Shown piece after piece: positions 12,811 to 62,878 of a stretch of 64,000 bases of DNA (position 1 is its first letter; every line of letters starts with the position of its first letter). The stretch is taken from assembly GCF_010365285.1 (NCBI RefSeq), contig NZ_CP048286.1, positions 2,189,001 through 2,253,000 of the forward strand, given 5' to 3'. The stretch comes from Paenibacillus rhizovicinus. Lineage in GTDB: Bacteria > Bacillota > Bacilli > Paenibacillales > Paenibacillaceae. The position numbers and the translations under genes are program-made. Below the pieces are notes generated by a model, which had not been told where the DNA came from, searched no databases, and saw only the letters and a program-made list of their open reading frames with translations.

Positions 12811-12839
12811 CCGATGTTCGTCTTTCATGCGCATGCGAT

Positions 12840-41200: not shown

Positions 41201-42070
41201 TCATCGTTTGGATGCCTGCTCTCTCAGCTGCAGCGGCGTCAAGCCGTAGTACTGCTTGAACAACTTGTAAAATTGCGATTTATCGTGATAGCCGACGCTC
41301 TTGCCGATCGCGACGGCGCATTCGCCGGACTCGAGCAGCATGCGCTTCGCTTCGCGGAGCCGCACTTCCTGCACGTATTCGGTGAACGTATACCCGCAGT
41401 ACAATTTGAACGTCTTGCTGATATATTGCGGCGAATAATAACTTTCTCTAGCCAGGTCCCGAAGCGTAATCGGCGAGGCGTAATGCTGCTCGATGTAGGA
41501 AAGCAGCTTGGGCAGCAAGTCGTGGAAATCGATCGCCGACTCATGTTCGAAATTGTCCTGCATCCTGCGGAACGCGGATGCCAGCAGCAGCGTCGTGTAA
41601 CCGCGCAGCATCGCGCGATAGCCGTTCTTCTTGGCCGTGTATTCGCTGTACATCGACTCCAGCAGCTCCTCCAGCTCCAGGATCGACTTGCCCTGGAACC
41701 GGATATGGTGGAAAGAACGCTGCAGAGAATGCTGGAATTCTTGAAACATCCGATGGGAGAAGAAGCCGCCGTCAGGGCCCAGCGACGTCAATTGTTCGCT
41801 TAAGAAGTCGGCTTCGATCAGAATATTCATGTACTGCGTGCCCTTCTCCGCCTGGAAGGAGTGTCTGTCCCCGACATTCATCCATATGAAATCGCCTCGC
41901 CTGACATTGTAGCTGTGCTCATTGATACGTTGGATTCCCGAGCCATGCAGGATGTAGACAAGCTCGATAAAATTGTGGGTATGCTCCGGTTCGACTGCGT
42001 GATCGGATATTTTACTCAACGCGATTTTCTCATCTTGCTGTATGCAATCAGCTGCCTTGTAAATATGCAC
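41201..42070 (-). CDS. AraC family transcriptional regulator
   Basis: 289 aa if it starts at GTG 42070, which has GGAGGG seven bases upstream; in-frame ATGs lie 12 codons earlier but without a good ribosome site. N-terminal cupin (EPEHTHNFIELVYILHGSG), then the double helix-turn-helix (PITLRDLARESYYSPQYISK and AVAIGKSVGYHDKSQFYKLF). It is followed by a terminator and by the opp operon in the same orientation, so it may regulate either opp or the glycan operon upstream. A cre-like box sits in front of it. Confidence 0.92.
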   Translation of the reverse strand: MHIYKAADCIQQDEKIALSKISDHAVEPEHTHNFIELVYILHGSGIQRINEHSYNVRRGDFIWMNVGDRHSFQAEKGTQYMNILIEADFLSEQLTSLGPDGGFFSHRMFQEFQHSLQRSFHHIRFQGKSILELEELLESMYSEYTAKKNGYRAMLRGYTTLLLASAFRRMQDNFEHESAIDFHDLLPKLLSYIEQHYASPITLRDLARESYYSPQYISKTFKLYCGYTFTEYVQEVRLREAKRMLLESGECAVAIGKSVGYHDKSQFYKLFKQYYGLTPLQLREQASKR

Positions 42071-42131
42071 CTCATCACCCTCCAACATCATGAGAATTCT
42101 TGTCATCTATATATCTGCCTGGACGCAGTTA

Positions 42132-42145: not shown

Positions 42146-42327
42146 TTATGTCTTATAATAAGCTTCTGCATCGAAAAAGATGTTCCTTCTTTATTTTTGA
42201 TTGTATTTTTTCCCATAAGTGGAACGCACAGATACATTCGACAACAGCCTGTCAGGATTTGCGCTATATTTCGCCAAAATACGCGTATTTCCGAAAACCG
42301 AAATCGGCTAACCGAATCCAAAGCAGA

Positions 42328-42390
42328 CAAAAATGCACCGTTTGGATCATTCGCTAAACTGTGAGTTTAACGAATGTCCTAGCGGTGCAT
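42328..42390 (-). terminator. Terminator of the glycan-utilisation operon
   Basis: Two stacked stems, ATGCACCG/CGGTGCAT outside and CATTCG-CTAAACT / AGTTTA-CGAATG inside, followed on the minus strand by TTTTTG. It begins 10 bp past the stop codon of the last gene of the long operon. Confidence 0.85.
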
Positions 42391-42399
42391 GGCGCCAAG

Positions 42400-43290
42400 C
42401 TATTCCTTGACGGAACCGAGCGTAATGCCGTGAATGAAGAAACGCTGGATGAACGGGTAGATCAGCATGATCGGAATCATCGAAATGATGATTTTCGCCG
42501 CGTTGAACGTCCGGTTCGATACGGCCATCGCCTGCGCCAGCTGCTCCGGCGACATGCCGGTCATCGCTTGCGCGCTCAGCTGGGCGACCAGCGTCTGGAT
42601 GTACGTTTGCAGCGGATATTGATCCTGCTTGTTCATCAAGATCAAGCCGTCGAAGAACGAGTTCCAATGAAACACGATGCTGAACAGCGTAACCGTCGCG
42701 ATCGCCGGAAGCGACAGCGGAACGAACATGCGAATCATGATGTACCAAGGTCCTGCGCCGTCGATTTCGGCGGCTTCGGACAGTTCCTTCGGCAGGTTGC
42801 GGAAGAAGTTCATCAGCAGGATGACGTTGAACGTCTGCACGGCATGGGGCAGCACGAGCGCCCATATCGAGTTGAGCAGGCCGTACGACTTGACCGTCAT
42901 GAACCACGGCACGATGCCGCCGCTGAACAGCATAGTGAAGACGACGAACCGCATGTAGACGTTGCGCATCCGGAATTGCTTGCTGTCCTTGGCAAGCGCG
43001 AAGGCCATCATGATCGTCAGCACGAAATTCAATAGACCGCCGAGCACGACCCGTTTGATTGAAATATAGAACGAATGGAAGAACTGGCCGTCATCGAGCA
43101 CTTTAGCATAGCTAGCCGTAGTGGCATCGATCGGCGTAAGCAGTACCCGTCCCGCATCGGCCGCGGCCTTATCGCTGAACGAGACGGCAACCGTGTGAAG
43201 AAGCGGAACGAGACAGGCAAGCGAGAAGACGATCAGCCTGCGATCGGACTGGCTTGTTTTGTGTGAAATGGTTTGTGGATGAACCCACAT
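42400..43290 (-). CDS. Orphan carbohydrate ABC permease, LplC type, with shortened N-terminus
   Basis: 296 aa. The body is a clear LplC-type permease: AVSFSDKAAADAG, the EAA loop LSEAAEIDGAGPWYIM then VPLSLPA, and the family ending FFIHGITLGSVKE. No LplB partner or binding protein is adjacent; the neighbour upstream is the GH38 gene, 7 bp away. The start has no recognisable ribosome site, and the first 18 residues (MWVHPQTISHKTSQSDRR) do not look like the usual LplC leader, so the first span begins about eight to ten residues early. It may be the remnant of a deleted transporter or a permease that borrows a partner. Confidence 0.8.
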   Translation of the reverse strand: MWVHPQTISHKTSQSDRRLIVFSLACLVPLLHTVAVSFSDKAAADAGRVLLTPIDATTASYAKVLDDGQFFHSFYISIKRVVLGGLLNFVLTIMMAFALAKDSKQFRMRNVYMRFVVFTMLFSGGIVPWFMTVKSYGLLNSIWALVLPHAVQTFNVILLMNFFRNLPKELSEAAEIDGAGPWYIMIRMFVPLSLPAIATVTLFSIVFHWNSFFDGLILMNKQDQYPLQTYIQTLVAQLSAQAMTGMSPEQLAQAMAVSNRTFNAAKIIISMIPIMLIYPFIQRFFIHGITLGSVKE

Positions 43291-43297
43291 CTACCGT

Positions 43298-46200
43298 CTA
43301 GAAATATACTTTTACCGTCTTGATCTCGAACGGCTTGAAATCCAGCGCATACGCGCCCGAATCGTCCGGAAGAAGCACCTGAATCTCTTCCTCCAGCAGA
43401 TTCGTGACCGCGACCTTGCTCGAAACTAGGCCAAGCTTCAATTTCGCTCCTCTGACACCCGATCGTTCCGCTTCATACAGGCGAAGCACGAATGCATCAT
43501 CGTCCTCCGCCGGTTTGATCGCCTCGATGATTACGTTCGTTGCGTCGACCGCCGCGAGCGAAGGCGCTTCGATTCCGGCTGAGCCGAAGGCAGCCGTAAG
43601 GGGAACGTTCAATTCATACGCCGGACGGATGACCGATTCCGCCGTGAACCCGCCTTCATGCGGCAGAAATGCATACGTGACCTCATGAATCCCTTGATCT
43701 CCCCGCGGATCCGGATGCGTGCCGCCTTTGTGCAAGGTGAGCCGAATATCCGAACCGAAGACGGAAACGCCGTATTTGCAGTCGTTTAACAGGGCAACGC
43801 CGAAGCGATTCTCCGACAAGTCCGTCCACTTGTGCGCGCAGCCTTCGAACATGCCTTGATCGTAAGAGGTATTCGTATGCGTAGGGCGCTCAACGTGGCC
43901 GAATTGCACCTCGTGCCGGGCGCGGTCCGCAAGCACATCCACGTCGAAACCAACCTTCAGCAGCTGATGCTTCTCCTGCCAATCGATTACTGTCTCGAAA
44001 TCGACGCGCGGCGTGTTCGAATGAAACACAATGTCCTGCCTGACGGAGGAAGAATGGCCGATCGAATAAGCTGCACGAATGCGCAGCTGCAACGGACCGT
44101 TGGCAACCACTTCGCGGCTCTGGAGCCCGGTCTGCAATTGGAGCTTGCCGAACACGTCGCGGTCGATGTCCCAATTGTCCCAGGCCCAAGGAAGGTCTTC
44201 GCCCATCAGAAGCGCATTCAAGGGATTCCCGCCCGGTCTTCGCAGCTCGCGGCCCGACTTCTTATCGACGAACGATGCGATATAGCCATCGTTATCGAAC
44301 ACCACGCGCGCGTACGGCGTCTCAATGCTCTCGTCTCCGATGACGAAAGGAGAGGCTGCGCTCATTGTACCCACTGCGCTCCTTGTGCCTGTTGCACTCA
44401 TTGCGCTTGGTACACTCACTGTACCCGTTGTACTCCTTGTGCCTGCTGCGCTCATTGTACCCGCTGCGCTCCTTGCACCATTCTCCAGCCGAACGCGCTT
44501 AGCTCCCATCGCCGGACAACCGACCCCGGCCAAGAGCAGTTTCGTTCTGCCGCTTCCGTCCACGATCCGCTGGCTCACGACCTCGGAATCCGCCGGAACC
44601 AGCCCCTCCGGCACCCCTTCGACCGCAATGGTCTCATCCCGCTGCCAGCCTAATGTATTCCATACCGTAATCGTATCCGCCCGGGATTCATGGTTCGTCT
44701 CCGACAGCAGCGCGGCCGTCGACTCGGCCGCCCCGGCAATGACTTCTCCCACTTCCTGCACGGCACGGTCATGAACTTCGGGAATCGACGTGCCCGGCAA
44801 AATATCATGGAACTGGTTAATGAGCAGCGTCTCGTAATACTGTTCACGGCGTGCTGCCATTCTCTCATCCCATATACCGCTGCTCAGCCTGTTCCATACC
44901 TCCGCGAGTTCCAAATCGCGAAGCGCGAACTCGGCTTTGCGATTATTCCGTTTGATCTGATGCATCTGCGTCAGCGTGCCCCGATGACCTTCGAAATAGA
45001 GCTCGCCGGCATGCACGGGCGGATCGATGAACGACGCCTCCATCTCTTGCATGAACCGGCTGACCGTCGTATGGGCCGCTCTCGGGACACCTTCTAAATC
45101 TTCGACTCGCCGTGCCATCTCCAGCATTTCATACTGAGGTCCCCCGCCGCCGTCGCCGAAGCCGTAGGAGACGAGCCTCTTATTGTTGCGAGGGCGTGAC
45201 CGCTGATCGTTCTGAACGCTCGCGCCGTTGCTTCCGTACGCAGATCCGTATATGCGCTGGATAAGCGACTCCGCATCCGGCCAGCAGTGGATGAAGTTGA
45301 AGTGCGTGAGCACTTCCGTCCCATCGAGCCCACGCCAACGGAATGTATCGTAAGGGAACGAATTCGTGTCATTCCAGGACAGCTTGGTCGTCAGGAAATA
45401 ACGGATACCCACCCCGGCCATGATCTGAGGAATGGCCGCGCTGTAGCCGAACGTGTCCGGCAGCCAGAACGTGTCGGCCGTGTAGCCGAAGTGCTCCCTC
45501 GTATAACGCTGTCCTTTGATGAATTGCCGCACAAGCGTCTCGCCGGATACGAGATTGCAGTCGCTTTCCACCCAGACGCCGCCGTTCGGTTCCCAGCGGC
45601 CTTCCGCGATTCTGCGCTTCATGCCTTCGAAGATATCCGGGTAATGGCGCCGCATCAATTCCGCATGAAAGGCCGAACTTTGAATAAACGTATATTCCGG
45701 ATATTGCTCCATTAACGAGAGCGCGTTGGCGTACGTTCGGGCGCATTTCCGTATCGTCTCGTCCCTCGTCCACAACCATGCCGTATCCATGTGGGAATGG
45801 CCGATGATACCGGCGATCGGGCCGGATTCGCCCCCTCGCTTGTCAAGCAGAGGCGCCATGATCGCGCGGGCTTCCTTGAGCAGCGGCCGCCACTGCGCTT
45901 CCGTCGCATCCTCCGGCGACTGCAGGACGATCTCGAACACTTTTAGAAGCTCTTGAACGAGCTGCCCCCTTCTGAACTCGTCGACGGCCGGAGCGTTCGC
46001 CAATTGATTCAGCGTCCGCAGGTCGAACACGAACGCCTGGACGTCCTCCCGGCACAGCATGACGTCGATGGAACGATAGACGCGATCGAACCGATAGTGG
46101 TAACCGTCATTCGATTCATAGGTTTGAAGGGGCTGCGTTCCGAAGCAGGGGTGGCCGGCATAGGCCTCGAACGCCAGCTCGTAGCCGCGTCCCGCTTCTG

Positions 46201-46588
46201 CCGAAGCGGTCAACAGCAGCGTATGATGGTTCCCCCGATTATCCGCTTCTTTGACATGCGTGAATATACCGGAAGGTTTGCCGTCTACCCAGAAGAACGA
46301 CTCCACGCCATCCGTCTCCGCCCGGATGTAGATGTTCTTCCCCGCGAGCCGATCCGGAATGGAGTAGCTTCCTTTGAACCACGCCGAGCCCCAAGCTTTG
46401 CCCCACTCCTGTCCGCTCGCGGCCGGAATCCAGGCTTCATTCTCGGTCGGCACCTGATAGAGATGCTCGTCGGTCTCCCAGAATCGAACCTCGAGCTCGT
46501 CGACTTTCTCGAAGATGTAGGGCCAATAAATCCCCTCCAGGCGCCTAAGCTTATCAAGCGTCTTCTGGATATGCCTTGTATGAATCAC
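43298..46588 (-). CDS. Alpha-mannosidase, GH38
   Basis: 1096 aa, near the usual size. The N-terminal region holds the GH38 catalytic domain: GHSHMDTAWLW (zinc ligands His and Asp), SSAFHAELMRRHYPDIF, then WLPDTFGYSAAIPQI with the likely nucleophile Asp. The mid and C-terminal beta domains follow (PRVDFETVIDWQEKH, FGVALLNDCKYGVSV). No signal peptide: it removes alpha-mannose from oligosaccharides inside the cell. A run of seven hexapeptide repeats interrupts the protein near residues 700-745. It lies 17 bp behind the GH95 fucosidase gene, so both enzymes probably trim the same imported glycan. Confidence 0.94.
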   Translation of the reverse strand: MIHTRHIQKTLDKLRRLEGIYWPYIFEKVDELEVRFWETDEHLYQVPTENEAWIPAASGQEWGKAWGSAWFKGSYSIPDRLAGKNIYIRAETDGVESFFWVDGKPSGIFTHVKEADNRGNHHTLLLTASAEAGRGYELAFEAYAGHPCFGTQPLQTYESNDGYHYRFDRVYRSIDVMLCREDVQAFVFDLRTLNQLANAPAVDEFRRGQLVQELLKVFEIVLQSPEDATEAQWRPLLKEARAIMAPLLDKRGGESGPIAGIIGHSHMDTAWLWTRDETIRKCARTYANALSLMEQYPEYTFIQSSAFHAELMRRHYPDIFEGMKRRIAEGRWEPNGGVWVESDCNLVSGETLVRQFIKGQRYTREHFGYTADTFWLPDTFGYSAAIPQIMAGVGIRYFLTTKLSWNDTNSFPYDTFRWRGLDGTEVLTHFNFIHCWPDAESLIQRIYGSAYGSNGASVQNDQRSRPRNNKRLVSYGFGDGGGGPQYEMLEMARRVEDLEGVPRAAHTTVSRFMQEMEASFIDPPVHAGELYFEGHRGTLTQMHQIKRNNRKAEFALRDLELAEVWNRLSSGIWDERMAARREQYYETLLINQFHDILPGTSIPEVHDRAVQEVGEVIAGAAESTAALLSETNHESRADTITVWNTLGWQRDETIAVEGVPEGLVPADSEVVSQRIVDGSGRTKLLLAGVGCPAMGAKRVRLENGARSAAGTMSAAGTRSTTGTVSVPSAMSATGTRSAVGTMSAASPFVIGDESIETPYARVVFDNDGYIASFVDKKSGRELRRPGGNPLNALLMGEDLPWAWDNWDIDRDVFGKLQLQTGLQSREVVANGPLQLRIRAAYSIGHSSSVRQDIVFHSNTPRVDFETVIDWQEKHQLLKVGFDVDVLADRARHEVQFGHVERPTHTNTSYDQGMFEGCAHKWTDLSENRFGVALLNDCKYGVSVFGSDIRLTLHKGGTHPDPRGDQGIHEVTYAFLPHEGGFTAESVIRPAYELNVPLTAAFGSAGIEAPSLAAVDATNVIIEAIKPAEDDDAFVLRLYEAERSGVRGAKLKLGLVSSKVAVTNLLEEEIQVLLPDDSGAYALDFKPFEIKTVKVYF
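44355..44480. repeat. 18-bp tandem repeat inside the GH38 gene, seven units
   Basis: Seven contiguous 18-bp units (consensus GCTGCGCTCATTGTACCC), two of which are identical. Since 18 is divisible by 3 the frame is kept, and the units encode a hexapeptide repeat of the form G-T-(M/R/V)-S-(A/V)-(A/T/P). The insert lies between the linker after CPAMGAKRVRLENG and the beta domain beginning SPFVIGDESIETPYARV. Confidence 0.9.
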
Positions 46589-46605
46589 GGGTTAATCCTC
46601 CTCAT

Positions 46606-48948
46606 TTATAAATGCCGGCGGAGCCTATATTCAATCCCTGCCTCCGCCTGCCAGCGCACGAGCCCCGCTTCCAGCGCCTCGATCGCGATTTCCTGCCCAT
46701 TCGCAGTTACCGTTACGGGACAATCCGTACGAACGACGCAGCATCCGCCGACTGTCGGGCGAATGACCGCCTGCGTCAGCTTGCCGTCCGCCCAAGCGAT
46801 ATCGACTTCGAAGCCGCCGCGCGCGCGCAAGCCTGCGATCTGCCCTTCCGCCCAGGCTATCGGCAGCGCCGGCAGCAGGTGAATCGCTCCCGCATGGCTT
46901 TGCATGAGCATTTCCGCAACGCCCGCCGCGCCGCCGAAGTTGCCGTCGATCTGGAACGGAGGATGGTTGTCGAGCAAATTCGGAAGCGTCGAATGAGACA
47001 GCAGCGCCTGCACGTTCCCGTGCGCTTGCTCTCCGTCTTCAAGACGCGCCCACATGTTGATGATCCATGCGCGGCTCCAGCCCGTATGGCCGCCGCCATG
47101 CGCCAACCGGCGCTCCAGCGTAACGCGTGCCGCAGCCGTCCATTCCGGCGTCTCGCGAACCGTGAATCTCGTGCCCGGATGCAGGGCGAACAAGTGCGAG
47201 ATATGCCGGTGGCCGGGTTCCGCCTCTTCATACTCTTCCATCCACTCCAGCAATTGCCCGTGCCTGCCGACTTGAGGCTCCGGCAGCTTCGCTCTCAAGC
47301 CCGCGAGCTGCGCAGCGAATTCCTCGTCCACGCCGAGCAATTCCGCCGCACGCATGCATGCCGAGAATAATTCGGCCAAAATCTGGCTGTCCATCGCCGG
47401 ACCTTGGCATAGCGTGCCGGACTCTCCGTTCGGATGCACGTACGTATTCTCCGGAGACGCCGACGGTGAAGTGACGACATATCCGTCCTTCGTCTCGATC
47501 AAGAAGTCGATGAAGAATGTAGCTGCTTCCTTCATCGTCGGATACGCTTGCTGCAAGAACGCGCGGTCTTGCCCGTAGGCATAATGTTCCCACAGATGCA
47601 GGCAGAACCAGGCAGCGCCCATCGGCCAATACGTCGCCGGCGCATAGATATCCTGCGGCGCCGTGTCCGCCCAGATATCCGTGTTATGATGGGCGACGAA
47701 CCCGCGCGCGCCGTACATGACCTTCGCCGTATGCCTGCCCGGTTCGCGCATTCTTTCCAGCAGATCGAACAGCGGCTCGTGGCACTCGGCCAGATTGCCG
47801 GTTTCAGCCGGCCAATAGTTCATCTGCGTATTGATGTTGATCGTATATTTGCTGTCCCAAGGCGGCATCATCTTGTCGTTCCAGATGCCCTGCAGGTTCG
47901 CGGGCAGCGACCCCGGACGGCTGCACGATACGAGCAAATACCGGCCGAATTGATAATAGAGCGGTATGAGGCCGATATCGGACCGGCCGTCATGAACGCG
48001 CTTTAATCTCTCGTCGATCGGCAGATTCGCTATTTCCCCCTCCTCCGATTCGCTCGCCTCCGAAGAAGCCAGAGAGAAGGATACGCGGTCCATCAGCGAG
48101 CGGAAGTCGGCGGCATGGCGGGCTCTCAGCGATTCATAGGATTGTTCCGACGCGGCGTCCAGCGCCCGCAGCGCTTCCGCCTCCGGATCGGCATGGCGGA
48201 ACGAAGTTGCCGCCGCGATGAGCAGCGTCACGCTGTCGGCTTGCTCGACAAGCATCGTCTCGCCGATCAGCTTGACGCTGCCTCCATCGGCGACGGCCCG
48301 GAAAGCGGCGCGAAAATCCGAGCCGCCGGTACCGCCGCAATTGCCGCGCATGACGATCGTCGAGGCGTCCGCTTGCGCGAGGGCGTCGTAGTATCGGTTA
48401 TTGCCGCGTGTCATGCGCGCCTTGAACGATATCCCGCCGGCGACGCTGCTCGTAAATCTGACGACGATGACATGATCCGGGAAGCTGGCGAACGTCTCGC
48501 GCGTATACCGAACATCATCCGTGCGGTACGATACGCGAACTATCCCTTCGGACAGATCGAGTTCGCGCGAATAATCCGTCACTTCTCCAGGGGCAAGACG
48601 CATACCGAATGATAAATCACCGAGCGGCATATAGTGGCGCTGCGACTCCGGCACGCCGGATAGCGCCATCGCCGCCAGCTCCTGCGCATCGCGCAGGCGG
48701 CCTTCCCCGATCATCTCGCGGATGACGTCCAGATGGGCTTTCGCATCGGGATTATTGCGGTCGCTCGGACCGCCGTACCAGACGCTGTCTTCATTGAGAG
48801 CCAGCTTCTCCTTGCGGGGATCTCCGTACACCATGGCGCCCAGCTTGCCATTACCGATCGGATGCGCCTCTTCCCATCGGGATGCCGGCCGGTCGAAGCG
48901 AACGATACCCGCCGAGCTCTGCAGTTGTTTCGCGATGACAATCAACAC
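46606..48948 (-). CDS. Alpha-L-fucosidase, GH95
   Basis: About 780 aa. The start is unsure: GTG 48948 (next to AAGAAAGG) is used here; TTG 48945 and TTG 48999 are also in frame, and the last overlaps the permease stop by 26 bases. GH95 blocks are present: [69 protein letters not shown] and [17 protein letters not shown]. The family removes alpha-1,2-linked fucose, or in some members L-galactose. No signal peptide, so it is intracellular. Placed between permease and mannosidase genes, it points to a fucosylated, mannose-containing glycan. Confidence 0.93.
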
Positions 48949-48973
48949 CTTTCTTATGCGATTCTCAACTACA

Positions 48974-49966
48974 TTACTCCACGATACCCGTTCTTTCAAT
49001 ACCGGTGACGAACCAGCGCTGCAGGAACATGAACACGATGATCGGCGGCGCGATAATCAAGAAGGCTGCGCCCATCTTCGCGCTCTCGGTCGTCGGATCG
49101 ACATCCGACTGCACCGTATTGGCGCCGAACGGCGACGGGTTCAGCACTTCCTGCAAGTGATCGAGCCTGATCGAAAGCGGCGTGAAACTGTTCGTGAGGA
49201 ACATGCCCGGCTCGTAATATAAATTCCAGTACCAGATGAACGAGAACAAGAAGACGACCAGGCACGCCGACCGCGCGAGCGGCAGCATGATGAAGAAGAA
49301 CAACCGGAACGTCGAGGCTCCGTCAAGCTTCGCCGCTTCTTCCAGACTGATGGGCTGCGCCTTGAAGAACTGGCGGAAAATTAAGATGAACAGCGCGCTC
49401 TTGACGCCTTGGCCGAAGACGGCCGGCACCAGGAATACCCAAATCGTGCCGAGCAGATGCAGCTTGCTGTAGATGACATAGAGCGGAATGATAATGACTT
49501 GCGGCGGAATCAAGAAGGACAGGATGATCATCGCCGAGAAGAAGCCTTTGAACGGCACGTTCATCTTCGCCAGCGCGTAACCCGTCACCGCGCAGATGAA
49601 CACTTGAACGATCGAACAGGATACGGACAGCAAAGCCGTATTGCGAATCGCCTCCCCATACACCAAGCCCCTGTACGCGGTGTGCATATTCTCCCAGGTC
49701 AGCTCCCTCGGAATCAGGCCGACCGTCGGATCGAGCAGATCGTTAAGCGGCTTGAGCATCGTACTGACCATGTAGATCAGAGGCTGCATGTAGAGATAGC
49801 CGACGATGGACAGCAGCACGCAGAGCACGAGCTTGGCGATCAATCCGTCCGAGAGGCTGCGGCCGAGCAGGAATACTTTGATCCGCTGCGAGGTCCGGCT
49901 CCAGAAGATGCCTTTTACCGTTTGGCTGACTTTCTCGGCCCTTTCCGTCCATACTCCGGTACTCAT
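48974..49966 (-). CDS. Carbohydrate ABC transporter permease, MalG/LplC-like
   Basis: 330 aa with a long N-terminal cytoplasmic leader of about 40 residues, then six spans (ADGLI...[20 protein letters not shown]). The EAA loop is [18 protein letters not shown] then MLPLARSA. It overlaps the preceding permease gene by four bases (ATGA). It forms one of the two permease pairs of the long operon. Confidence 0.92.
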
Positions 49967-50859
49967 GAACGAACACTCCTTCTACTCATGCTTCGGCTGA
50001 AGAACCACATGACAATCGCGATCAGGACGAAGATAAAGCCGAAATAAATCCAGGCAAGGGCGTTCGCATAGCCGTATCCGGTATCGATCTTGACCATATT
50101 GTTCTTAATGTGCTTGATAATCGGGTTATCCGGGAAGGTGAACAGGTCGATGATCGTATACAGCATGTTCAAGCTGATGAACGGCACGCTGGCCGGCAGC
50201 GTAATCTTCCAGAAGCTGTCCCATGGAGACGCCCCGTCGATGCGAACCGCTTCGTAGATCGAAGGCGATATCGTCTGGAAACCGGCGATGAAGATCAGAA
50301 TCTGCACGCCGGAATACCACAGAATCAAGATCACCTTGCCCAGAACGTACATGACGGTATCCGCGAACTCGCGCCCGACGTACTTCTGAATGAGCGGTCC
50401 GAGGTTGTATTGGTCGACGAACGGAATATCGCCGGCGCCCTGCGCGAACAATTCCGTTAATACTTGACCTGTGGCGAAGATAACGGGCAAGAAGAAGATC
50501 GCGCGGTAAATGAACCGGCCCGGGAACTTCTGATTCAGCATGAGCGACATCAGCAGCGCGAATATCACGATAATGGGCACCATGAGCAGCATCTGCTGGA
50601 AGAACGAAATCAAGTCGATCGGAAACTCGTTGTCGACGACGAAAGCGTCATGGAAATTCTTCAAGCCAAGCCAGTGATACTGAAAGCCGTCCGGACCAAT
50701 GTCGACCTTATGCAGCGACATGAACATCGAATAACCGACCGGATAAGCGACGAACGCAGAGAACCCGATGATCCAAGGAAGCATGAACAGCATGCCGACC
50801 CCGTATTTTTTGAATAGATACAAATAACGCTGGCGAGCGATATCTAGCGGCTTGTTCAT
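49963..50859 (-). CDS. Carbohydrate ABC transporter permease, MalF/LplB-like
   Basis: 298 aa with six spans, starting YGVGMLFMLPWIIGFSAFVA. The EAA loop is SIYEAVRIDGASPWDSFW then ITLPASVPF. The first codon overlaps the stop of the DUF5696-like gene. It pairs with the permease at 48974. Confidence 0.92.
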   Translation of the reverse strand: MNKPLDIARQRYLYLFKKYGVGMLFMLPWIIGFSAFVAYPVGYSMFMSLHKVDIGPDGFQYHWLGLKNFHDAFVVDNEFPIDLISFFQQMLLMVPIIVIFALLMSLMLNQKFPGRFIYRAIFFLPVIFATGQVLTELFAQGAGDIPFVDQYNLGPLIQKYVGREFADTVMYVLGKVILILWYSGVQILIFIAGFQTISPSIYEAVRIDGASPWDSFWKITLPASVPFISLNMLYTIIDLFTFPDNPIIKHIKNNMVKIDTGYGYANALAWIYFGFIFVLIAIVMWFFSRSMSRRSVRS

Positions 50860-53012: not shown

Positions 53013-53079
53013 GAGAACGAGAACGACGACAACCGCGGCCGCTATGAGTTTGACGCGAAGGGATAGAAGCTTGATGAAG

Positions 53080-55095: not shown

Positions 55096-55122
55096 TGTTC
55101 CGACTTCCTTTGCTGGAGTTAA

Positions 55123-55992
55123 TTACTTGATTCCGGAATGGACCATCGTCTCGAGCACTTTCCGCTGGAAGAGCAAGAAGATGATCAAGTTCGGGATGAA
55201 CATCAGCAAACCCGCCGCCGCCGCCATATTCTGGCCGGCAACGCTATTCTGAAGACCGCTCACCAAGCTGTTGACGTAGAAGGCGAGCGTTCGCATCGTC
55301 TCGCTCTGCATGAAGAGCGTCGAGGTTTCGACATCGCCCCACATGCCCTGGAACGTGAAGATCGAGATCGTGGCGATCGCGGGCACCGTAAGCGGCAGCA
55401 CCATCCGCATGAAGATGCCGAGCTGGCTTGCACCGTCGATCTTGGCCGCTTCGAGCAGCTCGTTCGGAATTTGCGAGATGAAGCCGATCAGCATGAACAC
55501 CGCGAGCGGCGATGCCAAGGCAGGCAGGACATGGCCGAAATACGTATTGTTGATATGCAGCCCGCTGATGATCAAATATCTCGGGATGCTGACCGTTTCC
55601 GGCGCGAACATCAGCGACAGCGTAATGAGCCCCATGATGAGACCCTTGAAATGGAAGTTGTACTTCGCCAGCACGTAGGCCGCCATCGTACTGACGATGA
55701 TGACGCTGGGGAGCGTTATTCCCGTGACAAGAAAACTGTTGAACAAGTACCGGGTGAACGGCACCGCCCCGTTGCTCGCATGCAGGAACAGGATTTCGAA
55801 GTTGTGCCAGGTCGGATTATGGACCCAGAATCTCGGCGGGAACAAGAACAGCTCGTTCTGCGGCTTGAACGCATGATTGAGAATGAAGATAAGCGGAAGC
55901 GCCATGAACGCGGCCAGCCCGGTGAAACAAACCGTCAGGATGATTTGGAAAGGCGTCACTTTACGCATTCGTCTTCTAAAGGTTGCGATCAT
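55123..55992 (-). CDS. Carbohydrate ABC transporter permease, MalG-like
   Basis: 289 aa from ATG 55992, preceded by GGAGGAGATG; a longer frame is a shadow. Six spans, starting FQIILTVCFTGLAAFMALPL. The EAA loop is ELLEAAKIDGASQLGIFM then MVLPLTVPA. It is the second permease of the pair formed with the gene 4 bp upstream. Confidence 0.92.
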   Translation of the reverse strand: MIATFRRRMRKVTPFQIILTVCFTGLAAFMALPLIFILNHAFKPQNELFLFPPRFWVHNPTWHNFEILFLHASNGAVPFTRYLFNSFLVTGITLPSVIIVSTMAAYVLAKYNFHFKGLIMGLITLSLMFAPETVSIPRYLIISGLHINNTYFGHVLPALASPLAVFMLIGFISQIPNELLEAAKIDGASQLGIFMRMVLPLTVPAIATISIFTFQGMWGDVETSTLFMQSETMRTLAFYVNSLVSGLQNSVAGQNMAAAAGLLMFIPNLIIFLLFQRKVLETMVHSGIK

Positions 55993-55996
55993 CGGG

Positions 55997-56971
55997 CTAC
56001 ATCTCCTCCTTCGACCCGAACAGCCGATACGCGAATCGCATCGCGAAATAGCTGACGAGCAGCAGCATGACGGAGATCGACGAGGCATAGCCGAGTTCAA
56101 ACCGAATGAAGGCGTAATCGTCAATATGGTTGACGATGAGATGCCCTGCATATTGCGGCGTAACCGGCATCCCCGTCAGCTGCGTGGAGATGGCGCCGGC
56201 CTTCAGCGTGCCGACGATGGTCATGACGGCGCTGAACAACAGTTGAGGCTTCATCGACGGCAGCGTAATATAGAACACTTGCTGCAGGCGGTTGGATACG
56301 CCGTCGATGCTCCCCGCTTCATACAGCTCCCGGTTAACGGTCTGCAACCCGGCCAGCATGGCCAGGAAGCCGACGCTGAAGCTCATCCACAGGGATACGA
56401 GAATCATTACTTTAAGCAAATAATCCGGATTCTGAAGCCATATGACCGGACTGTCGATCAGGCCGAATTTGAGCAGGAACCGGTTGACGTATCCGACGCG
56501 GTCGCCGCTGAACGCCGCGATCCATACGACCGACAACGCGACGGCGCCGGCCATCGACGGCGCGTAGAAGGCCAATGTGTAATAGTCGCGAATCCGGATC
56601 GGCAGCTGATGGATCAGCCAAGCGAACAGGAACGCCAACGCATAGCCGCCCGGTCCTACGATGAGCGCGAACAAGAATGTGTTCGGCAGCGCTTTGGTCA
56701 AGAAGATGATGTCGTTCGTGAACAGCATGAGATAGTTGTCGAACCCGATAAAGTGCAGGGAGCCGAACCCGTTATACGACGTAAATCCGAGCGTGCCGGC
56801 CATGAAGACCGGAATGACGATGAAGATCATGAAGCAGATCAAGAAGGGCGCGATGAACAAGTACGCGAACGTGTCGCGCTTCAGTTCTTTGAAGAATCGG
56901 CCAAGCTTGGTACCAAGGCCGGACTTGCGTCCAACCTTGGCCAGCGCGGGAGAAAGCTCCGTATTGATCAT
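55997..56971 (-). CDS. Carbohydrate ABC transporter permease, MalF-like
   Basis: 324 aa from ATG 56971 (GGAGGAATCTCA upstream). A cytoplasmic leader of about 35 residues precedes six spans (FAYLFIAPFLICFMIFIVIP). The EAA loop is ELYEAGSIDGVSNRLQQV then ITLPSMKP. Its start overlaps the stop of the large binding-protein gene, so this permease pair most likely serves that protein. Confidence 0.92.
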   Translation of the reverse strand: MINTELSPALAKVGRKSGLGTKLGRFFKELKRDTFAYLFIAPFLICFMIFIVIPVFMAGTLGFTSYNGFGSLHFIGFDNYLMLFTNDIIFLTKALPNTFLFALIVGPGGYALAFLFAWLIHQLPIRIRDYYTLAFYAPSMAGAVALSVVWIAAFSGDRVGYVNRFLLKFGLIDSPVIWLQNPDYLLKVMILVSLWMSFSVGFLAMLAGLQTVNRELYEAGSIDGVSNRLQQVFYITLPSMKPQLLFSAVMTIVGTLKAGAISTQLTGMPVTPQYAGHLIVNHIDDYAFIRFELGYASSISVMLLLVSYFAMRFAYRLFGSKEEM

Positions 56972-59910
56972 TGAGATTCCTCCCAATTAAAAGGTTTCTT
57001 AATTTGCGGGACATGCAGGTCGTCGGTTTTCTTAATGCCGAAGTCGACCTGCCTGCGGTCCATTTCCCGTTGAATCTCCGTTTGCGCTTTCTCTAACGCC
57101 TCTTGCGCGGGCACGCGGTCGAATACGGTACTGTTCCAAGCGAAGTCCATTTCCCGCGAGAGGAAGTAGTAGCCTGGCACGTAAGGCATGTTCTTCGCCC
57201 ATTTGCTCTGCTCGCGCAGCACGGCGATATCCTCGTTCGACCAAGGGAGCGTCTTCATCGCGTTCGTGTTCGCTGAATTCCAGCGGTATTCCATGCCGTA
57301 ATACGACTCGATGTCTTTCGCGTAATGCGCTTGAACCTCGTCGGACGTCCACCATTGGAGGAATTTCCAGGCTTCGTCCTTGTTATCGCTTTTCTTCATG
57401 ATCATGCCGGCCGAGATCCCCTGCGGAGACCATCTGGCGACCGTGCCGTCCGCTTGCTTCACGCCGGGCAGCGGAGCGATCTTCCAGTGACCGGTAATTT
57501 CCGGAGCCGCGACGAGCAGCTGGACGTACGTGTTAAAGTCCGCGATCCCGATCGGAATGTCCCCGTTGCGGAAATGCTGGAAGAAGGCCGGAATATCGAT
57601 CGGCAGATTGTACTTCAAGTACAGGTCCGTCCAGCGTTTGAATGCAGCCATGCCCTCGGGCGTCGTAAGCGTGCTCTTCAACCCGTTAGGCGCGTACAGC
57701 TCGGCGCCGTTCTGGAAGAACATCGTGGTGAAGTCGGCCTTCGGATAGCTCATCGTCATGTCGTTCTCTTGCAGCGTCGGCAAGATCGTGAACAAGTCGT
57801 CCCAGGTGTCCGGAGCTTTCAAGCCCAGGCTGTCGAATATATCGGTACGATAGAACATTACGCTGAAGTTCTGCGTCTCCGGCAAGCCGTAAGTGCCGCC
57901 GTCGTATGCCATGGCGCGGAACGTGCCCGGGATGAAGCGTTTGGCTACATCCTCGAAGCCGGGATATTTGGACAGATCCTCCACCGCGTCCCGCATGGCA
58001 TAGTCGGCCGGCGTCGCTTCGCCGATACCGAGCGCTACGTCCGGCACTTCGCCGGCGGCGTTGCCCAGGATGAGCTGGTTCGCGTTCGGCATTAAGCTGA
58101 CGTTTACATGAATGCCGGTCTTCGGCGTGAAGTCCGTATCGATCATTTCGTTAAGCAAGTCGACGTAATCGCGTCCGCGGGACACCCAGATCGTCAGCGA
58201 ATCCTTGTCGTTCTTCTTGCTGACGTCGTAGTCCATATAGAAGGAACGGGCGAAATCTTTGATCGAGTACGGGATGCGGGACCATGCGGTCGGCACCTTG
58301 AAGCCCGGATCGGTATCCGGCGTGCGGACCGTAATGAAGTCGAGCAGCAGCGACTGCTGCGTGAGCGTCGTCATCCACGTGCCGATATTGCTCTGAATCG
58401 TCGAGAACGTATCGATCTTGTTCGGAATTTCGTCGACGTTCTTGCGGAGCTCCTTCAGCAGGTCGATCGAGCTTAGAATCCCTTCCGCGAGATCCGAATC
58501 GATGCCGTTGACGCCGTTGATATAATCGCGGATGTCCGACAAGCGATTGATAAAGCCGTCCATCGTCTGCTCCACGTTCGGATCGTACTTCTTCATGTCC
58601 CACGTTCTCGTCGTATCCAGATTCGCATCGAAGGAGCTGACGCTATACGCGCCCGTCAGCAAGCGGATTTTACGGTCATAATCGGATAATGCCTGAAGCT
58701 CGTTATTCAAAGCCAGTTGAATCGGCTGCATCTCCGAAGCGTCAGCCGTCATCTTGAGCCTGTGGTCGCCCTTCGTCAAATAAAACCGGTAAGGCTTGTC
58801 GTCCTTGTCGCGAATCGTCTCGACCGTGAATTCGCCGTTGAATCGCAGCGGGTAATGCAGCATCTCGCGAAACGGAACCGCGCCGTCGATCTCGATCGTG
58901 CGGTAGGCTTTGAATCCATTGCGATAATTCTGGTAGGCTTTCAGATCGATCTCGTACCACCCGTCCGCCGGCACGTTGATCGTCCACTCGATCGCCTCGC
59001 CGGGGTTGCGCCATCTGTCGCCGCCGATGACGTTATACGTCGTGCGGCCTTTCGGATCCGGAGAGATATAAGGCTCCGACCAGTGATCCGTCTGAATCAT
59101 CAGACTCGACTTGTCGAGGAAGTTCTCCCCTTCGACGTTCCCGTACCATTCCTTCTCCCTCGACGGAGCCGGGTTCGCCGTTTGATACTCCGCATACGTC
59201 TTGATCGCCTTCTTCGGCTTGAAGGTCAACGAGCGAAGCGCAACTTTCTCCTTGTTGCCGACAAGACGAAGCGTATGCTTCCCGGCTTCAAGCCGGTACA
59301 GCAGCGGTTCGGATGAGGTCGTGAAATCGCTGACCGCCTTCTCGTTCCAGCCGGCGATCTCGACCTGCTCCGGCCGGACTTGCATGCCGATCTCGTTGCG
59401 GTCGTACGGGTATTTCGCGTCTTTCCAATGACGCTCGAGCTCGACGTGCTGCGATTCCGAGAACGGATATTTGCCGTCGATCTGGATGCCGCGGATGACC
59501 GAGTCGTTGCCGCCCGGAAGCGGCATATAATCGATATCGAGTTCGTACCAGCCGGCGGTCGCGACGTCGAAGCTCCACTCCACCCACCCTTGGTCGCTGT
59601 TCCAATGCAGCGACTCGCCGTCCGCATCGTTCGTCTTCTCTGCTTGCGCGTCAGGCGCGGAATCGCTGAATTCGCTCGCCTTGATCGCAATCGGCGCGCC
59701 GGATGACGATTCGGCAGTCACTTGGTTGTCGGCCATCACCTTCGCGTAGGGAAGCAAATCTCCCGCAGCCTTGTACGTCAGCATATTTGCGGCGGTAAGG
59801 GTCGAGGCGTAAGTGACCGGTTCCCCGCCATAAGCCCAGCGATAGCCGCCGAAGAGGATGACGAGAATCGGCGCGAGCCGGATGGCGATTCGAGTCCGCT
59901 TCTTCCTCAT
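56968..59910 (-). CDS. Giant membrane-anchored solute-binding protein with two carbohydrate-binding-like domains
   Basis: 980 aa, about twice the normal length. The N-terminus is a signal anchor (IRLAPILVILFGGYRWAYGG) without a lipobox Cys. Two beta-sandwich-like modules follow, about 40-245 and 255-410. They share the pattern GWVEWSFDVATAGWYELDID / EAIEWTINVPADGWYEIDLK, then IQIDGKYPF / IEIDGAVPF and an H-x-L-x-L turn near the end, which resembles CBM6/35-type folds. A helical linker (about 430-570) leads to a complete family 1 solute-binding domain (SLTIWVSRGRDYVDLLNEMI ... AWKFLQWWTSDEVQAHY). It overlaps the ATPase gene upstream and the permease gene downstream. It may hold polymer chains near the transporter. 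Confidence 0.9.
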   Translation of the reverse strand: MRKKRTRIAIRLAPILVILFGGYRWAYGGEPVTYASTLTAANMLTYKAAGDLLPYAKVMADNQVTAESSSGAPIAIKASEFSDSAPDAQAEKTNDADGESLHWNSDQGWVEWSFDVATAGWYELDIDYMPLPGGNDSVIRGIQIDGKYPFSESQHVELERHWKDAKYPYDRNEIGMQVRPEQVEIAGWNEKAVSDFTTSSEPLLYRLEAGKHTLRLVGNKEKVALRSLTFKPKKAIKTYAEYQTANPAPSREKEWYGNVEGENFLDKSSLMIQTDHWSEPYISPDPKGRTTYNVIGGDRWRNPGEAIEWTINVPADGWYEIDLKAYQNYRNGFKAYRTIEIDGAVPFREMLHYPLRFNGEFTVETIRDKDDKPYRFYLTKGDHRLKMTADASEMQPIQLALNNELQALSDYDRKIRLLTGAYSVSSFDANLDTTRTWDMKKYDPNVEQTMDGFINRLSDIRDYINGVNGIDSDLAEGILSSIDLLKELRKNVDEIPNKIDTFSTIQSNIGTWMTTLTQQSLLLDFITVRTPDTDPGFKVPTAWSRIPYSIKDFARSFYMDYDVSKKNDKDSLTIWVSRGRDYVDLLNEMIDTDFTPKTGIHVNVSLMPNANQLILGNAAGEVPDVALGIGEATPADYAMRDAVEDLSKYPGFEDVAKRFIPGTFRAMAYDGGTYGLPETQNFSVMFYRTDIFDSLGLKAPDTWDDLFTILPTLQENDMTMSYPKADFTTMFFQNGAELYAPNGLKSTLTTPEGMAAFKRWTDLYLKYNLPIDIPAFFQHFRNGDIPIGIADFNTYVQLLVAAPEITGHWKIAPLPGVKQADGTVARWSPQGISAGMIMKKSDNKDEAWKFLQWWTSDEVQAHYAKDIESYYGMEYRWNSANTNAMKTLPWSNEDIAVLREQSKWAKNMPYVPGYYFLSREMDFAWNSTVFDRVPAQEALEKAQTEIQREMDRRQVDFGIKKTDDLHVPQIKKPFNWEESQ

Positions 59911-61040
59911 CCTTGATCTCCTCCAACCGCCAACGATACGCCTGTATGGCTATCGAAGAAGTGCACCTTGTTCATGTTAAAGCCGATTGCGGGCTCCTCT
60001 TCGCTGAGGTACGAATCGCTTGGATCGGTGCGTACGATCAGCTTCGAATCGCCGACGGTGAAATAGACGTAGCTGTCCGCGCCCGTCACTTCCGAGAATT
60101 GCACGCTTCCCTGCACGTAGCCATTCCGTTCGTCCGCCTCGGAATACGCCGGCTTAATGAGCAAGTGCTCCGGCCTTACGCCGAGCACGACGTTGCGAAC
60201 CGCGCCGTTCATGCGCGCTATATTCCGGTCATGCTCTCTCGGAATGAGTAGCTTCATTCGTTTGTTGTTGAAGTAGTAACGGCCGTCCTCAAGCGTGATG
60301 TTGCCGGTGATGAAGTTCATCTGCGGCGAACCGATGAATCCCGCGACGAACATGTTGGCCGGTCGATCGTACAGCTGACGCGGCGGGGCGACTTGCTGAA
60401 TGACGCCGTCCTTCATCACGACGATGCGCGTGCCCATCGTCATGGCTTCGACTTGGTCGTGGGTCACATATACGGTCGTGCGCTTCAAATCCTTCTGGAG
60501 CTTGATGATCTCCGCGCGCGTCTGCGCTCTCAGCTTCGCGTCCAGGTTCGACAGCGGTTCATCCATCAAGAATACTTGCGGCTCGCGCGCGATTGCGCGG
60601 CCGAGCGCTACCCGCTGCTTCTGGCCGCCGGACAATTGATTCGGCTTGCGGTCCAGCAAGTGCGCAATCTCCAGAATGCGCGCAACGCGGTTAACCCGAA
60701 GCTCGATATCGAACATCGGCGTCTTGCGCAGCTTCAAACCGAGCGCGATATTCTCGTACACCGTCAAATTCGGGTACAGCGCATAGTTCTGGAATACCAT
60801 CGCGATGTCTCTGTCCTTCGGCGAAGTGTAGTTAATGAACTTGCCGTCGATATACAGGTCGCCGCTCGAGATCTCTTCCAATCCGGCAAGCATGCGCAGC
60901 GTCGTAGACTTCCCGCAGCCCGAAGGCCCGACCAGGACGAGGAATTCCCCTTCTTCGATCGTCAGATGGAAATCGTTCACGGCCGGGCGCGATTCGCCTT
61001 TGTATTGTTTGAACACGTGGTTGAATGTGATGCTTCCCAT
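59907..61040 (-). CDS. ABC transporter ATP-binding protein, MsmX/UgpC-like
   Basis: 377 aa. Walker A GPSGCGKSTTLRMLAG, signature LSGGQKQRVALGRAI, Walker B VFLMDEPLSNLDAKL, switch His in YVTHDQVEAMTMG, and C-terminal TOBE-type regions (VVLGVRPEHLLI). It is the sugar-importer ATPase and, being the only ATPase of the long operon, probably drives both permease pairs. It may also serve other LplBC-type transporters of the genome. ATG 61040 follows AGGTGAG. Confidence 0.94.
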   Translation of the reverse strand: MGSITFNHVFKQYKGESRPAVNDFHLTIEEGEFLVLVGPSGCGKSTTLRMLAGLEEISSGDLYIDGKFINYTSPKDRDIAMVFQNYALYPNLTVYENIALGLKLRKTPMFDIELRVNRVARILEIAHLLDRKPNQLSGGQKQRVALGRAIAREPQVFLMDEPLSNLDAKLRAQTRAEIIKLQKDLKRTTVYVTHDQVEAMTMGTRIVVMKDGVIQQVAPPRQLYDRPANMFVAGFIGSPQMNFITGNITLEDGRYYFNNKRMKLLIPREHDRNIARMNGAVRNVVLGVRPEHLLIKPAYSEADERNGYVQGSVQFSEVTGADSYVYFTVGDSKLIVRTDPSDSYLSEEEPAIGFNMNKVHFFDSHTGVSLAVGGDQG

Positions 61041-61210
61041 CCTAACTCACCTCTAGTAAAGTCTGGTCTGCCGCTTCTTCCCTGCTTCCGCGGCATGCCG
61101 GCCCGGGCAATCCCGGGCACGGCGCCTTCTGACAAGTAACGAGACTTCCGCAGCATGCCGTGCTAGCGATCACACAACAGCCGCAACAGCCACAACAACC
61201 GAGGAATCGG

Positions 61211-62653
61211 CTACTTCAACGCCGCGCGCACTTCTTGCGTTCGCTTGTTCCAGCCTTCGGCCGATGCGATCAGTTCGCTGGTGTCTCCGTCCTCGAAAAT
61301 AATCTTGTTGCCGAGTCCGTTCCATTGATATTCGCCGAACGCCGGAATCATATAGCCCATTTCCGGGATGCCGTTCTCTTTGGAGATACGGACCGCGTCC
61401 GTGTTCTTGTCTTTCCACAGCGGGATTTGGTCATAGTAAGCATCCAGTTCCGGATCGATGATCGCCGGGTTGTTGCCTTGCTCCATTTTCCACTTCTGAA
61501 TCTCTTTCGAGAATTGGAAGCTGATGTACAGGAACGCTTCCGCTTTGTGCTTCGAGCCTGCGAGCAGCGTCATCGGGCCCCAGATACTGTAGCTAGGCTG
61601 GCCTTTCGTGCCTCTCGGGAACGGCAGAACGTCCCAATCGAAGTTCGCTTTGCTCCGGAGCTCGGGAATGTTCCAGCTTCCGCCGATCGCGAAGCCGGTT
61701 TTGCCGTTCAGGAAGTTCGACATGGCATCGCCTTTGGCTTTGGCGTCGGCATAATTCAGCATCGAGCCGTCTTTCGTCACGAACTCTTTAAGCCACTTGA
61801 ATTCATCCACGACTCCCGGAGTTCCCATCATGCTTTGCGTCAGGTCCGTGTTCATGAACTGCAGGTTGTTCGCGTAACCGTCCGCGATCGACTTCGTGCT
61901 GAGGAGACGCATTTGCCATTCCGGCATCGTCGTCATGCCGTATTCGCCCGCATCCGGATTGGTCATCTTCTTCGCATCCTCGCGGAGATCGTCATACGTC
62001 CAGTCGTTAGGCGGCATGTCGAGACCGTTCTTGGCAAGCAGGTCCTTGTTGACGAGAATCCACATCGGCACGTCTACGAAAGGAACGGCTACGCGTTTGC
62101 CGTTGATCTTGAACGTATCGAGCAAACCGTTCTTCAATTGCACGCTTTGCATCGTCGGATCCGTATCGAGGTACGGGGTCAGATCCTCGGCGACGCCGTT
62201 TTGTTCGAAGGAGTATAAGTCTTGGTCAACCCACGACAAGTCGGCAGGCGTTCCGGCCGCTTGGTTCGCAGCCACGACTTCGAGAATCGACTTGCCGTTA
62301 ACCGGTACGTTCTCGATCGTGATCCATGGGTACTTCTCGTGGAATTTCTGGTAGAGCGGCACATAGTCGTCTCCTGCCCAGCTGACGATTCGAAGCGTAA
62401 CCGGGTCGTGTTTCACTTCCGTTGCTGCCGCCGCATTCGTATCGGAAGCGCTTTCCGTATCTGCCGCATTAGCGTTCGCCGTGCTGTTAGTGCCAGCGTT
62501 GTTGGTTTTGTCGGCGCTGCCTGCATTGCTGGCTTTGTTCGTATCGTTCGCGGTGTTGCTGCTGTTGTTGTTCGTTCCTCCGCAAGCGGAAAGGACAAGG
62601 GTCAAGCTCAAAAGCATGCTGCTTAGCATAGCGAGTTTGTTTCTTGTTTTCAC
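61211..62653 (-). CDS. Sugar ABC transporter substrate-binding lipoprotein, family 1
   Basis: 480 aa from GTG 62653, chosen because GGAGGAGAAACA lies directly before it; earlier in-frame codons fall in the leader. The lipobox LSACGG gives the lipidated Cys, then an Asn/Thr/Ala-rich linker of about 55 residues. The mature domain is a family 1 sugar-binding protein (VTLRIVSWAGDDYVPLYQKF ... YWDGLGNKI-type end). It is the first gene of the long operon. A 170-bp gap to the ATPase gene holds a small GC-rich hairpin (61101-61118) but no terminator. It most likely serves the permease pair at 48974/49963. Confidence 0.92.
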   Translation of the reverse strand: MKTRNKLAMLSSMLLSLTLVLSACGGTNNNSSNTANDTNKASNAGSADKTNNAGTNSTANANAADTESASDTNAAAATEVKHDPVTLRIVSWAGDDYVPLYQKFHEKYPWITIENVPVNGKSILEVVAANQAAGTPADLSWVDQDLYSFEQNGVAEDLTPYLDTDPTMQSVQLKNGLLDTFKINGKRVAVPFVDVPMWILVNKDLLAKNGLDMPPNDWTYDDLREDAKKMTNPDAGEYGMTTMPEWQMRLLSTKSIADGYANNLQFMNTDLTQSMMGTPGVVDEFKWLKEFVTKDGSMLNYADAKAKGDAMSNFLNGKTGFAIGGSWNIPELRSKANFDWDVLPFPRGTKGQPSYSIWGPMTLLAGSKHKAEAFLYISFQFSKEIQKWKMEQGNNPAIIDPELDAYYDQIPLWKDKNTDAVRISKENGIPEMGYMIPAFGEYQWNGLGNKIIFEDGDTSELIASAEGWNKRTQEVRAALK

Positions 62654-62772
62654 TGTTTCTCCTCCTGATCGAATCGAATTTGAATGATTGCGGTTGGTGC
62701 GGACGTGCATGCAGACGAATAGCCGACTCCCCTTAAGCCGATCTCATCACACCTCTCGAAAGGTGATAAATC

Positions 62773-62786
62773 AGAAAACGTTCGCA
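62773..62786. promoter_or_regulatory. LacI-type operator in the leader of the glycan operon
   Basis: TGCGAACGTTTTCT on the minus strand, an imperfect copy of the main operator with the half TGCGAACGTT intact, about 60 bp downstream of it. Confidence 0.6.
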
Positions 62787-62829
62787 CAAGATACAACGTA
62801 TGTAAATGCCTTCATCATGCAATATTCTT

Positions 62830-62843
62830 TGCGAACGTTCGCA
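62830..62843. promoter_or_regulatory. LacI-type operator at the glycan-operon start site
   Basis: Perfect 14-bp palindrome TGCGAACGTTCGCA. It begins 7 bp downstream of the -10 box, so a repressor bound here would cover the transcription start. Confidence 0.85.
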
Positions 62844-62849
62844 TAAACA

Positions 62850-62878
62850 TCTTAAATCCACGCTGTATTTTTTGTCAA
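62850..62878 (-). promoter_or_regulatory. Promoter of the glycan-utilisation operon
   Basis: Perfect TTGACA and TTAAGA with a 17-bp spacer on the minus strand. The start is near 62843, giving a leader of about 190 nt before the GTG at 62653. Confidence 0.85.

Follow-up and report, generated by a model that had tools for sequence, protein, structure and literature searches.

A recurrent seven-gene putative importer cassette with NHL-YIP1 and DUF5696 proteins in a glycosidase-bearing operon of Paenibacillus

Introduction

MalEFGK-type (CUT1) systems are ATP-binding cassette (ABC) importers of sugars. Here, we analyze a twelve-gene operon of Paenibacillus rhizovicinus, located in a stretch of 64,000 nucleotides (contig NZ_CP048286.1, positions 2,189,001 to 2,253,000; hereafter the window), and a seven-gene cassette within it. 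The operon resembles CUT1 systems in having solute-binding proteins (SBPs), MalF/MalG-type permeases with an EAA loop, and a MalK-type ATPase. It differs in that two SBPs, two permease pairs, and one orphan permease share a single operon, and in that one of the SBPs, SbpB, is predicted to bear two domains resembling carbohydrate-binding modules (CBMs) and an N-terminal anchor.

Judging from the passages available of the relevant papers, the nearest known kinds of system are the Gram-positive polysaccharide utilization loci (gpPULs) and the pneumococcal NgtS importer. In the gpPULs of Roseburia and E. rectale, glycoside hydrolases (GHs) are linked to a transporter, mostly of the ABC type, and to a regulator (PMC5320581). 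The operon likewise combines glycoside hydrolases with an ABC transporter, which family matches assign to carbohydrate transport, and it has no SusC/SusD. In contrast to gpPULs, it holds a twin importer together with an NHL-YIP1 protein and a DUF5696 protein (the passages of PMC5320581 mention neither YIP1 nor DUF5696), its enzymes belong to two cytoplasmic exo-type families, and no regulator lies inside it. NgtS-P1-P2 of Streptococcus pneumoniae, a lipoprotein SBP with two permeases, imports mannose-rich oligosaccharides (PMC5215778; by count alone, the text names GH38 five times). The operon shares the combination of a lipoprotein SBP and a permease pair, whereas the passages of that paper describe one of each for NgtS-P1-P2 and mention no CBM-bearing SBP, NHL-YIP1, or DUF5696. 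By predicted structure, DUF5696 shares the overall fold of the GH129 enzymes NagBb and ZgGH129 (PMC8106489, PMC5698469). DUF5696 differs from them in being membrane-anchored and a putative importer partner, and in that the equivalents of D435 and E478 appear to be nonacidic in the window and unconserved in its family. Neither DUF5696 nor PF18952 is named in any paper of the open-licence PubMed Central (PMC) literature that was searched, and broader searches of that literature returned nothing on the cassette among the matches listed, as judged by title or abstract start.

Results and discussion

The open reading frame (ORF) map of the window has 12 minus-strand ORFs from 62710 to 42400 (window coordinates throughout). 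Neighbors overlap or are separated by less than 70 base pairs (bp), except for sbpA and the ATPase gene, which lie 170 bp apart (61211 to 61040); an initial annotation of this DNA had described the same tight packing. The products are, in order, SbpA, a MalK/UgpC-type ATPase, SbpB, PermA1, PermA2, NHL-YIP1, DUF5696, PermB1, PermB2, GH95, GH38, and PermC. We find that seven of these genes, sbpB-permA1-permA2-NHL/YIP1-DUF5696-permB1-permB2, form a conserved cassette whose gene order is found again in many bacteria of soil and gut. Scanning genome contigs yielded at least 571 relatives, of which we took the best 80 by DUF5696 similarity. In 76 of these 80 loci, the seven core genes form an unbroken same-strand run in this order, and the remaining four end at a contig edge inside the cassette. 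Because the 80 loci were chosen by DUF5696, a control set was picked by sbpB, with one full-length match per genome from 20 of 22 genus genomes (the own genome and G113, which had no full-length sbpB among the matches listed, were left out). The whole core is in order in all 20 control loci, and ten more sbpB matches, from five of the control genomes, also have all seven genes. These comparisons start from loci picked via DUF5696 or sbpB.

The own genome has five matches to DUF5696 (PF18952), all in the cassette arrangement; in two of the five copies, NHL and YIP1 are encoded by separate genes. More broadly, of the genomes sampled, 96 of 147 in the own family and 39 of 398 in the phylum have a DUF5696 match over the profile cut-off, two of the latter only through short matches of ~26 bits. 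The same seven functions, by third-party annotation names, are found on plasmids of Paenibacillus cellulosilyticus and Butyrivibrio fibrisolvens. The initial annotation had treated NHL-YIP1 and DUF5696 as an accessory module; instead, both belong to the conserved core, whereas it is the enzymes that vary. We also rejected DUF5696 as an accessory of this operon alone, as it accompanies the other core genes in relatives and NHL, YIP1, and the permB pair in distant loci.

To cover more distant loci, 20 outside the own family were hand-picked from the 39 phylum genomes over the cut-off, so as to spread over families. NHL, YIP1, DUF5696, permB1, and permB2 occur together in all 20. The sbpB-permA1-permA2 group precedes this block in 12 loci (in L156 with permA2 in two pieces) and follows it in four (L157, L161, L163, and L167). 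It is weak in L150 and was not seen in L151, L152, or L166, although the stretches of L152 and L166 span only 13 kilobases (kb). Since module order changes among distant loci, the data suggest two units: sbpB with permA1 and permA2, and NHL and YIP1 with DUF5696, permB1, and permB2. An sbpA or sbpX gene adjoins the second unit in L161, L163, L191, and L192, and in the last two, which are among the ten additional sbpB matches, sbpA sits between permA2 and NHL-YIP1. Gene content and order thus suggest two importers, one formed by sbpB and the permA pair and the other by sbpA, NHL/YIP1, DUF5696, and the permB pair.

Both permease pairs look like working importers because the EAA loop is kept in all four permease families (alignments of 77, 78, 80, and 80 sequences, window included). 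This loop couples a permease to its ATPase. Its first E is kept in 77, 76, 80, and 72 sequences, respectively, with D in the other eight of the last family, and its DG pair is nearly always kept, with E for D in 26 of 80 permB1 sequences. The permeases of the window, all on the minus strand, are of MalF/UgpA type (permA1, 55997..56971; permB1, 49963..50859) and MalG/UgpE type (permA2, 55123..55992; permB2, 48974..49966). The Pfam score of permA1 is 22.9 bits, under the cut-off of 26.4, and permA2 starts near 55992 rather than at 56151. The minus-strand ATPase gene atp (59907..61040) matches the MalK/UgpC-type UgpC subfamily over the cut-off, and profile searches place a MalK-type ATPase with OB/TOBE domains in the operon. 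In 44 of the 76 loci, the gene immediately before the core encodes an ATPase; cassettes without their own ATPase presumably borrow one.

SbpB (56968..59910, minus strand) is a protein of 980 amino acids with a helix or anchor at residues 2-27, jelly rolls of the CBM6/35 kind at 74-232 and 256-389, a helical spacer at 392-513, and an SBP domain at 586-861. The last matches SBP_bac_1 (E 1.9e-28), making it a family-1 SBP. A jelly-roll fold of the CBM6/CBM35 kind was found for the N-terminus, which scored 15.4 bits against the CBM_35 profile, under the cut-off of 28. We thus predict that SbpB is anchored in the membrane and carries two CBM6/35-like domains. The lipoprotein SBP gene sbpA (61211..62653, minus strand), whose start we reassign to a GTG after AGGAGG, has a weak UgpB-type NCBIfam match (E 1.4e-6) far under the cut-off and no Pfam match at E 0.001.

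NHL-YIP1 (53080..55095, minus strand) comprises, from N- to C-terminus, a signal peptide, an NHL beta-propeller, one transmembrane segment, and a YIP1 membrane domain with five hydrophobic segments. By ORF length, NHL and YIP1 make up a single fused gene in 51 of 80 loci, whereas the other 29 have split or short versions. The DUF5696 gene (50856..53087, minus strand, with a possible AUC start at 53087-53085) encodes an N-terminal hydrophobic anchor and a GH129-fold domain. The initial annotation called this protein DUF5696-like; the match of 50856-53012 to the profile is in fact a full one (E 2.5e-159, 532.1 bits, cut-off 25.6). Its predicted structure has the overall GH129 fold with a barrel; the structure comparisons used here and for SbpB bear only on the families that they list. 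At E 0.001, the window protein has no match to the GH129 Pfam family PF11308, and neither L003 nor L004, two relatives, has one even at E 1. In remote alignments, the window protein has F at both registers that correspond to NagBb D435 and E478, the second of which we take to be a catalytic residue. D435 is named as catalytic in the available text of PMC5698469. Both GH129 catalytic residues thus appear to be missing in the window DUF5696.

The DUF5696 frame lacks an ATG, GTG, or TTG before the membrane anchor in 9 of 82 loci (69 have one and 4 could not be judged), namely the window, L052, L057, L058, L059, L060, L062, L064, and a paralog in L013. An ATC codon lies 6 nucleotides (nt) after a conserved GAGGTGA, and relatives L054, L055, L056, and L074 carry ATG there. 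These loci may use a conserved non-AUG start that overlaps the stop of NHL-YIP1, or a frameshift fusion may be present.

Downstream of the core lie two glycosidase genes on the minus strand, both of exo-type families. The GH95 gene (46606..48999) matches the catalytic domain at E 8.8e-183, and its nearest solved relatives are 2rdy (BH0842) and 7kmq. The GH38 gene (43298..46588) encodes an Ams1-like member of the alpha-mannosidase family in which the N, middle, and C domains are all matched and whose nearest solved relatives are of Ams1 type. Neither enzyme has a hydrophobic N-terminal segment, in line with the absence of signal peptides initially annotated, and no secreted endo-acting enzyme is found among the operon genes. 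In fetched stretches of up to 10 kb on each side of DUF5696, so that counts are lower bounds, GH95 (>100 bits) occurs in at least 10 of 80 loci and GH38 (>60 bits) in at least 4 of 80; L063 holds a more distant GH38. The gene-neighborhood search proposed in the initial annotation shows that the core genes do travel together, contrary to one of the two refuting outcomes named there, and that GH95 and GH38 both accompany the core, after it, in only one of the 80 loci (L057, Cohnella zeiphila). GH95 and GH38 are variable cargo, while the seven-gene core is the constant part. A hand-picked set of 20 neighbor proteins of cassettes includes GH26, GH42, pectate-lyase-like proteins, DUF3502 SBPs, kinases, a chemotaxis receptor, and SLH proteins. 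Because cargo genes differ between copies, the cassette itself does not fix a substrate. The earlier view of a Gram-positive uptake locus stands as anatomy, but its assignment of a substrate does not follow from the cassette. A fucosylated, mannose-bearing oligosaccharide is a plausible substrate of this operon, to judge from its two enzyme families only.

A sigma-70-like promoter, TTGACA-18-TAAGAT, lies on the minus strand at 62849..62878 with 10 of 12 consensus matches. It was initially annotated as strong (62850-62878); the motif is present, but promoter-like sites across the 20 kb of the operon are at chance level (11 versus 10.4 ± 3.0 in shuffles). Five nt after its -10 element is a perfect palindrome, TGCGAACGTTCGCA (62830..62843, no strand assigned), an operator candidate that we take to be of LacI type from its central CG. 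A second, imperfect operator-like site 57 bp downstream (62773..62786, no strand assigned) has three mismatches and is by itself at chance level. The 7.5-megabase (Mb) genome holds two exact TGCGAACGTTCGCA sites, where ~0.03 would be expected for a random 14-mer at equal base frequencies. The other copy shows identical spacing (TTGACA, 18 nt, TATATT, 5 nt, operator) and precedes GFO/IDH/MocA oxidoreductase genes that follow closely on a LacI-family gene (L018). Because the exact operator is absent from the arabinose stretch L022, the GntR-type regulator of the upstream arabinose genes was rejected as its owner, and the LacI gene in L018 is the preferred candidate. A LacI-type repressor encoded elsewhere probably controls the operon together with the GFO/IDH/MocA oxidoreductase set. 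GFO/IDH/MocA-like genes also neighbor 8 of 80 cassettes (with GH95 and GH38 on either side in L057) and are present in 3 of 20 control stretches.

Taken together, we consider it reasonably probable that the cassette is a surface-tethered twin ABC importer, with glycosidase cargo that trims imported oligosaccharide inside the cell; this judgment includes the docking, ATPase, and LacI steps. From sequence and gene order, SbpB and PermA1/A2 would form the first importer, with SbpB gripping the glycan through its two CBM6/35-like domains. The second would comprise PermB1/B2, the NHL propeller/YIP1 protein, DUF5696, and, by position, lipoprotein SbpA; the membrane-anchored GH129 fold of DUF5696 and the NHL propeller may serve as surface docking proteins for the SbpA-PermB importer. 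A MalK-type ATPase would drive both importers, being borrowed where the cassette has none. GH95 and GH38 would then trim the imported oligosaccharide in the cytoplasm, and the LacI repressor may sense a breakdown product.

A bolder version of this account, which we put forward only tentatively, is that the parts make up one integrated surface machine, a Gram-positive counterpart of Sus. Here, anchored SbpB, DUF5696 as a dead-enzyme glycan guide, and the NHL propeller with YIP1 would hold two coupled importers together, allowing the capture of long or branched glycans and their transfer between the two. If so, the cassette would represent a widespread, uncharacterized Bacillota import system with interchangeable enzyme cargo, and would help explain how Gram-positive bacteria of soil and gut hold complex glycans at their surface before ABC import. 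It would also provide a testable role for two unknown families, DUF5696 and bacterial YIP1, and a marker by which many loci, at present labeled simply as sugar transporters, could be annotated.

Several observations weigh against the twin-importer account. Gene position is the sole basis for pairing SbpA with PermB. TGCGAACGTTCGCA has five genome sites within one mismatch, versus two for a reversed control, and among the 194 loci examined the exact sequence occurs only in those of the own genome. Cargo is also diverse: the plasmid copy of Paenibacillus cellulosilyticus carries LLM flavin oxidoreductases, which hint at non-glycan cargo, such that not every cassette copy need import a glycan. 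The remaining points concern the claim that DUF5696 is inactive. The model of this protein has a predicted local distance difference test (pLDDT) score of only 66.5, and its catalytic residues were mapped through remote alignments. Of 85 family members, 11 have E at the E478 register and 5 have E at the D435 register; 2 (L084 and L089) have it at both. Furthermore, 25 of the 85, including the window protein with E520, carry D or E at a position adjacent to the D435 register, so that a one-residue slip would restore an acid there.

These acids, together with the GH129 fold and its barrel, also bear on whether DUF5696 is an active surface glycosidase that trims glycan before import, using acids other than those of GH129. 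Three of its own acids, D204, D529, and E625, are kept in 83-84 of 85 sequences, which likewise counts against an inactive protein, and ZgGH129 is active with one of the two NagBb catalytic residues, according to the part of PMC5698469 available. However, the window has no acid at either GH129 register, neither register is conserved in the family, and DUF5696 is present in all 20 sbpB-picked loci even though cargo varies between copies. We therefore regard an active DUF5696 as unlikely. Less likely still is that NHL-YIP1 and DUF5696 are sensors that detect surface glycan and signal to the permeases, or to nearby kinases or chemoreceptors, instead of feeding the importer. Histidine kinase, AraC, or methyl-accepting chemotaxis protein genes do lie near some cassette copies, and we know of no transport role for NHL propellers or YIP1 domains. 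Yet these kinases and receptors differ from copy to copy, in contrast to the constant permease link, and Pfam gives no cytoplasmic signaling domain in either protein. That the operon is an ordinary Gram-positive glycan locus, with two unrelated ABC importers as neighbors and NHL-YIP1 and DUF5696 as incidental, seems very improbable and was already disfavored: every part resembles common families, module order can swap, and the sbpB-permA unit is weak (L150) or not seen beside the second unit in some distant loci, but the order is fixed in 76 of 80 relatives and in all 20 loci picked without DUF5696, and the cassette extends to Clostridia.

A defense role was rejected, as PADLOC gave no match for NHL-YIP1, DUF5696, or SbpB. 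Palindromes are not common to ortholog promoters; among 16 loci, only L054, L056, and L074 had one, of different sequence. The operon ends at a bipartite hairpin terminator (42328..42390, minus strand) identified by folding, as initially annotated: the region 42320-42400 folds at -36.7 kcal/mol (z -6.6), with 0 of 200 shuffles as stable, although this terminator is not among the matches of a terminator pattern scan. A stem-loop in the 170-bp gap between sbpA and atp is not convincing (145-nt piece, z -1.85, 3 of 200 shuffles as good). The last gene, permC (42400..43290, minus strand), is by profile match (BPD_transp_1) a MalG-like fifth permease, presumably LplC-like, with no MalF-type partner in the operon. 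The initial annotation left it off its list of eleven proteins; the two binding proteins, two permease pairs, one ATPase, and two glycosidases on that list are all present. Among the 80 related loci, only L124 has a permC relative (>80 bits) nearby, where it adjoins another permease.

Past the terminator, an AraC-type gene (41201-42106) adjoins the operon and is a candidate regulator only. The segment directly downstream of the terminator (38923-42106) holds this gene together with one for a binding lipoprotein of the oligopeptide type (SBP_bac_5). Upstream neighbors of the operon are araA, an FGGY kinase gene, and a GntR-type regulator gene. Elsewhere in the own genome, at 4.29 Mb, the locus that shares the operator with the operon (L018:6726-13729) has tandem GFO/IDH/MocA oxidoreductase genes followed by an AraC-type sensor. 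On the Paenibacillus cellulosilyticus plasmid (L195:6936-27412), after the cassette come four LLM flavin-dependent oxidoreductases and another two binding proteins. Also on the minus strand of the window are group II intron domains (12737-14642) and a T-box leader (16527-16789, 116 bits).

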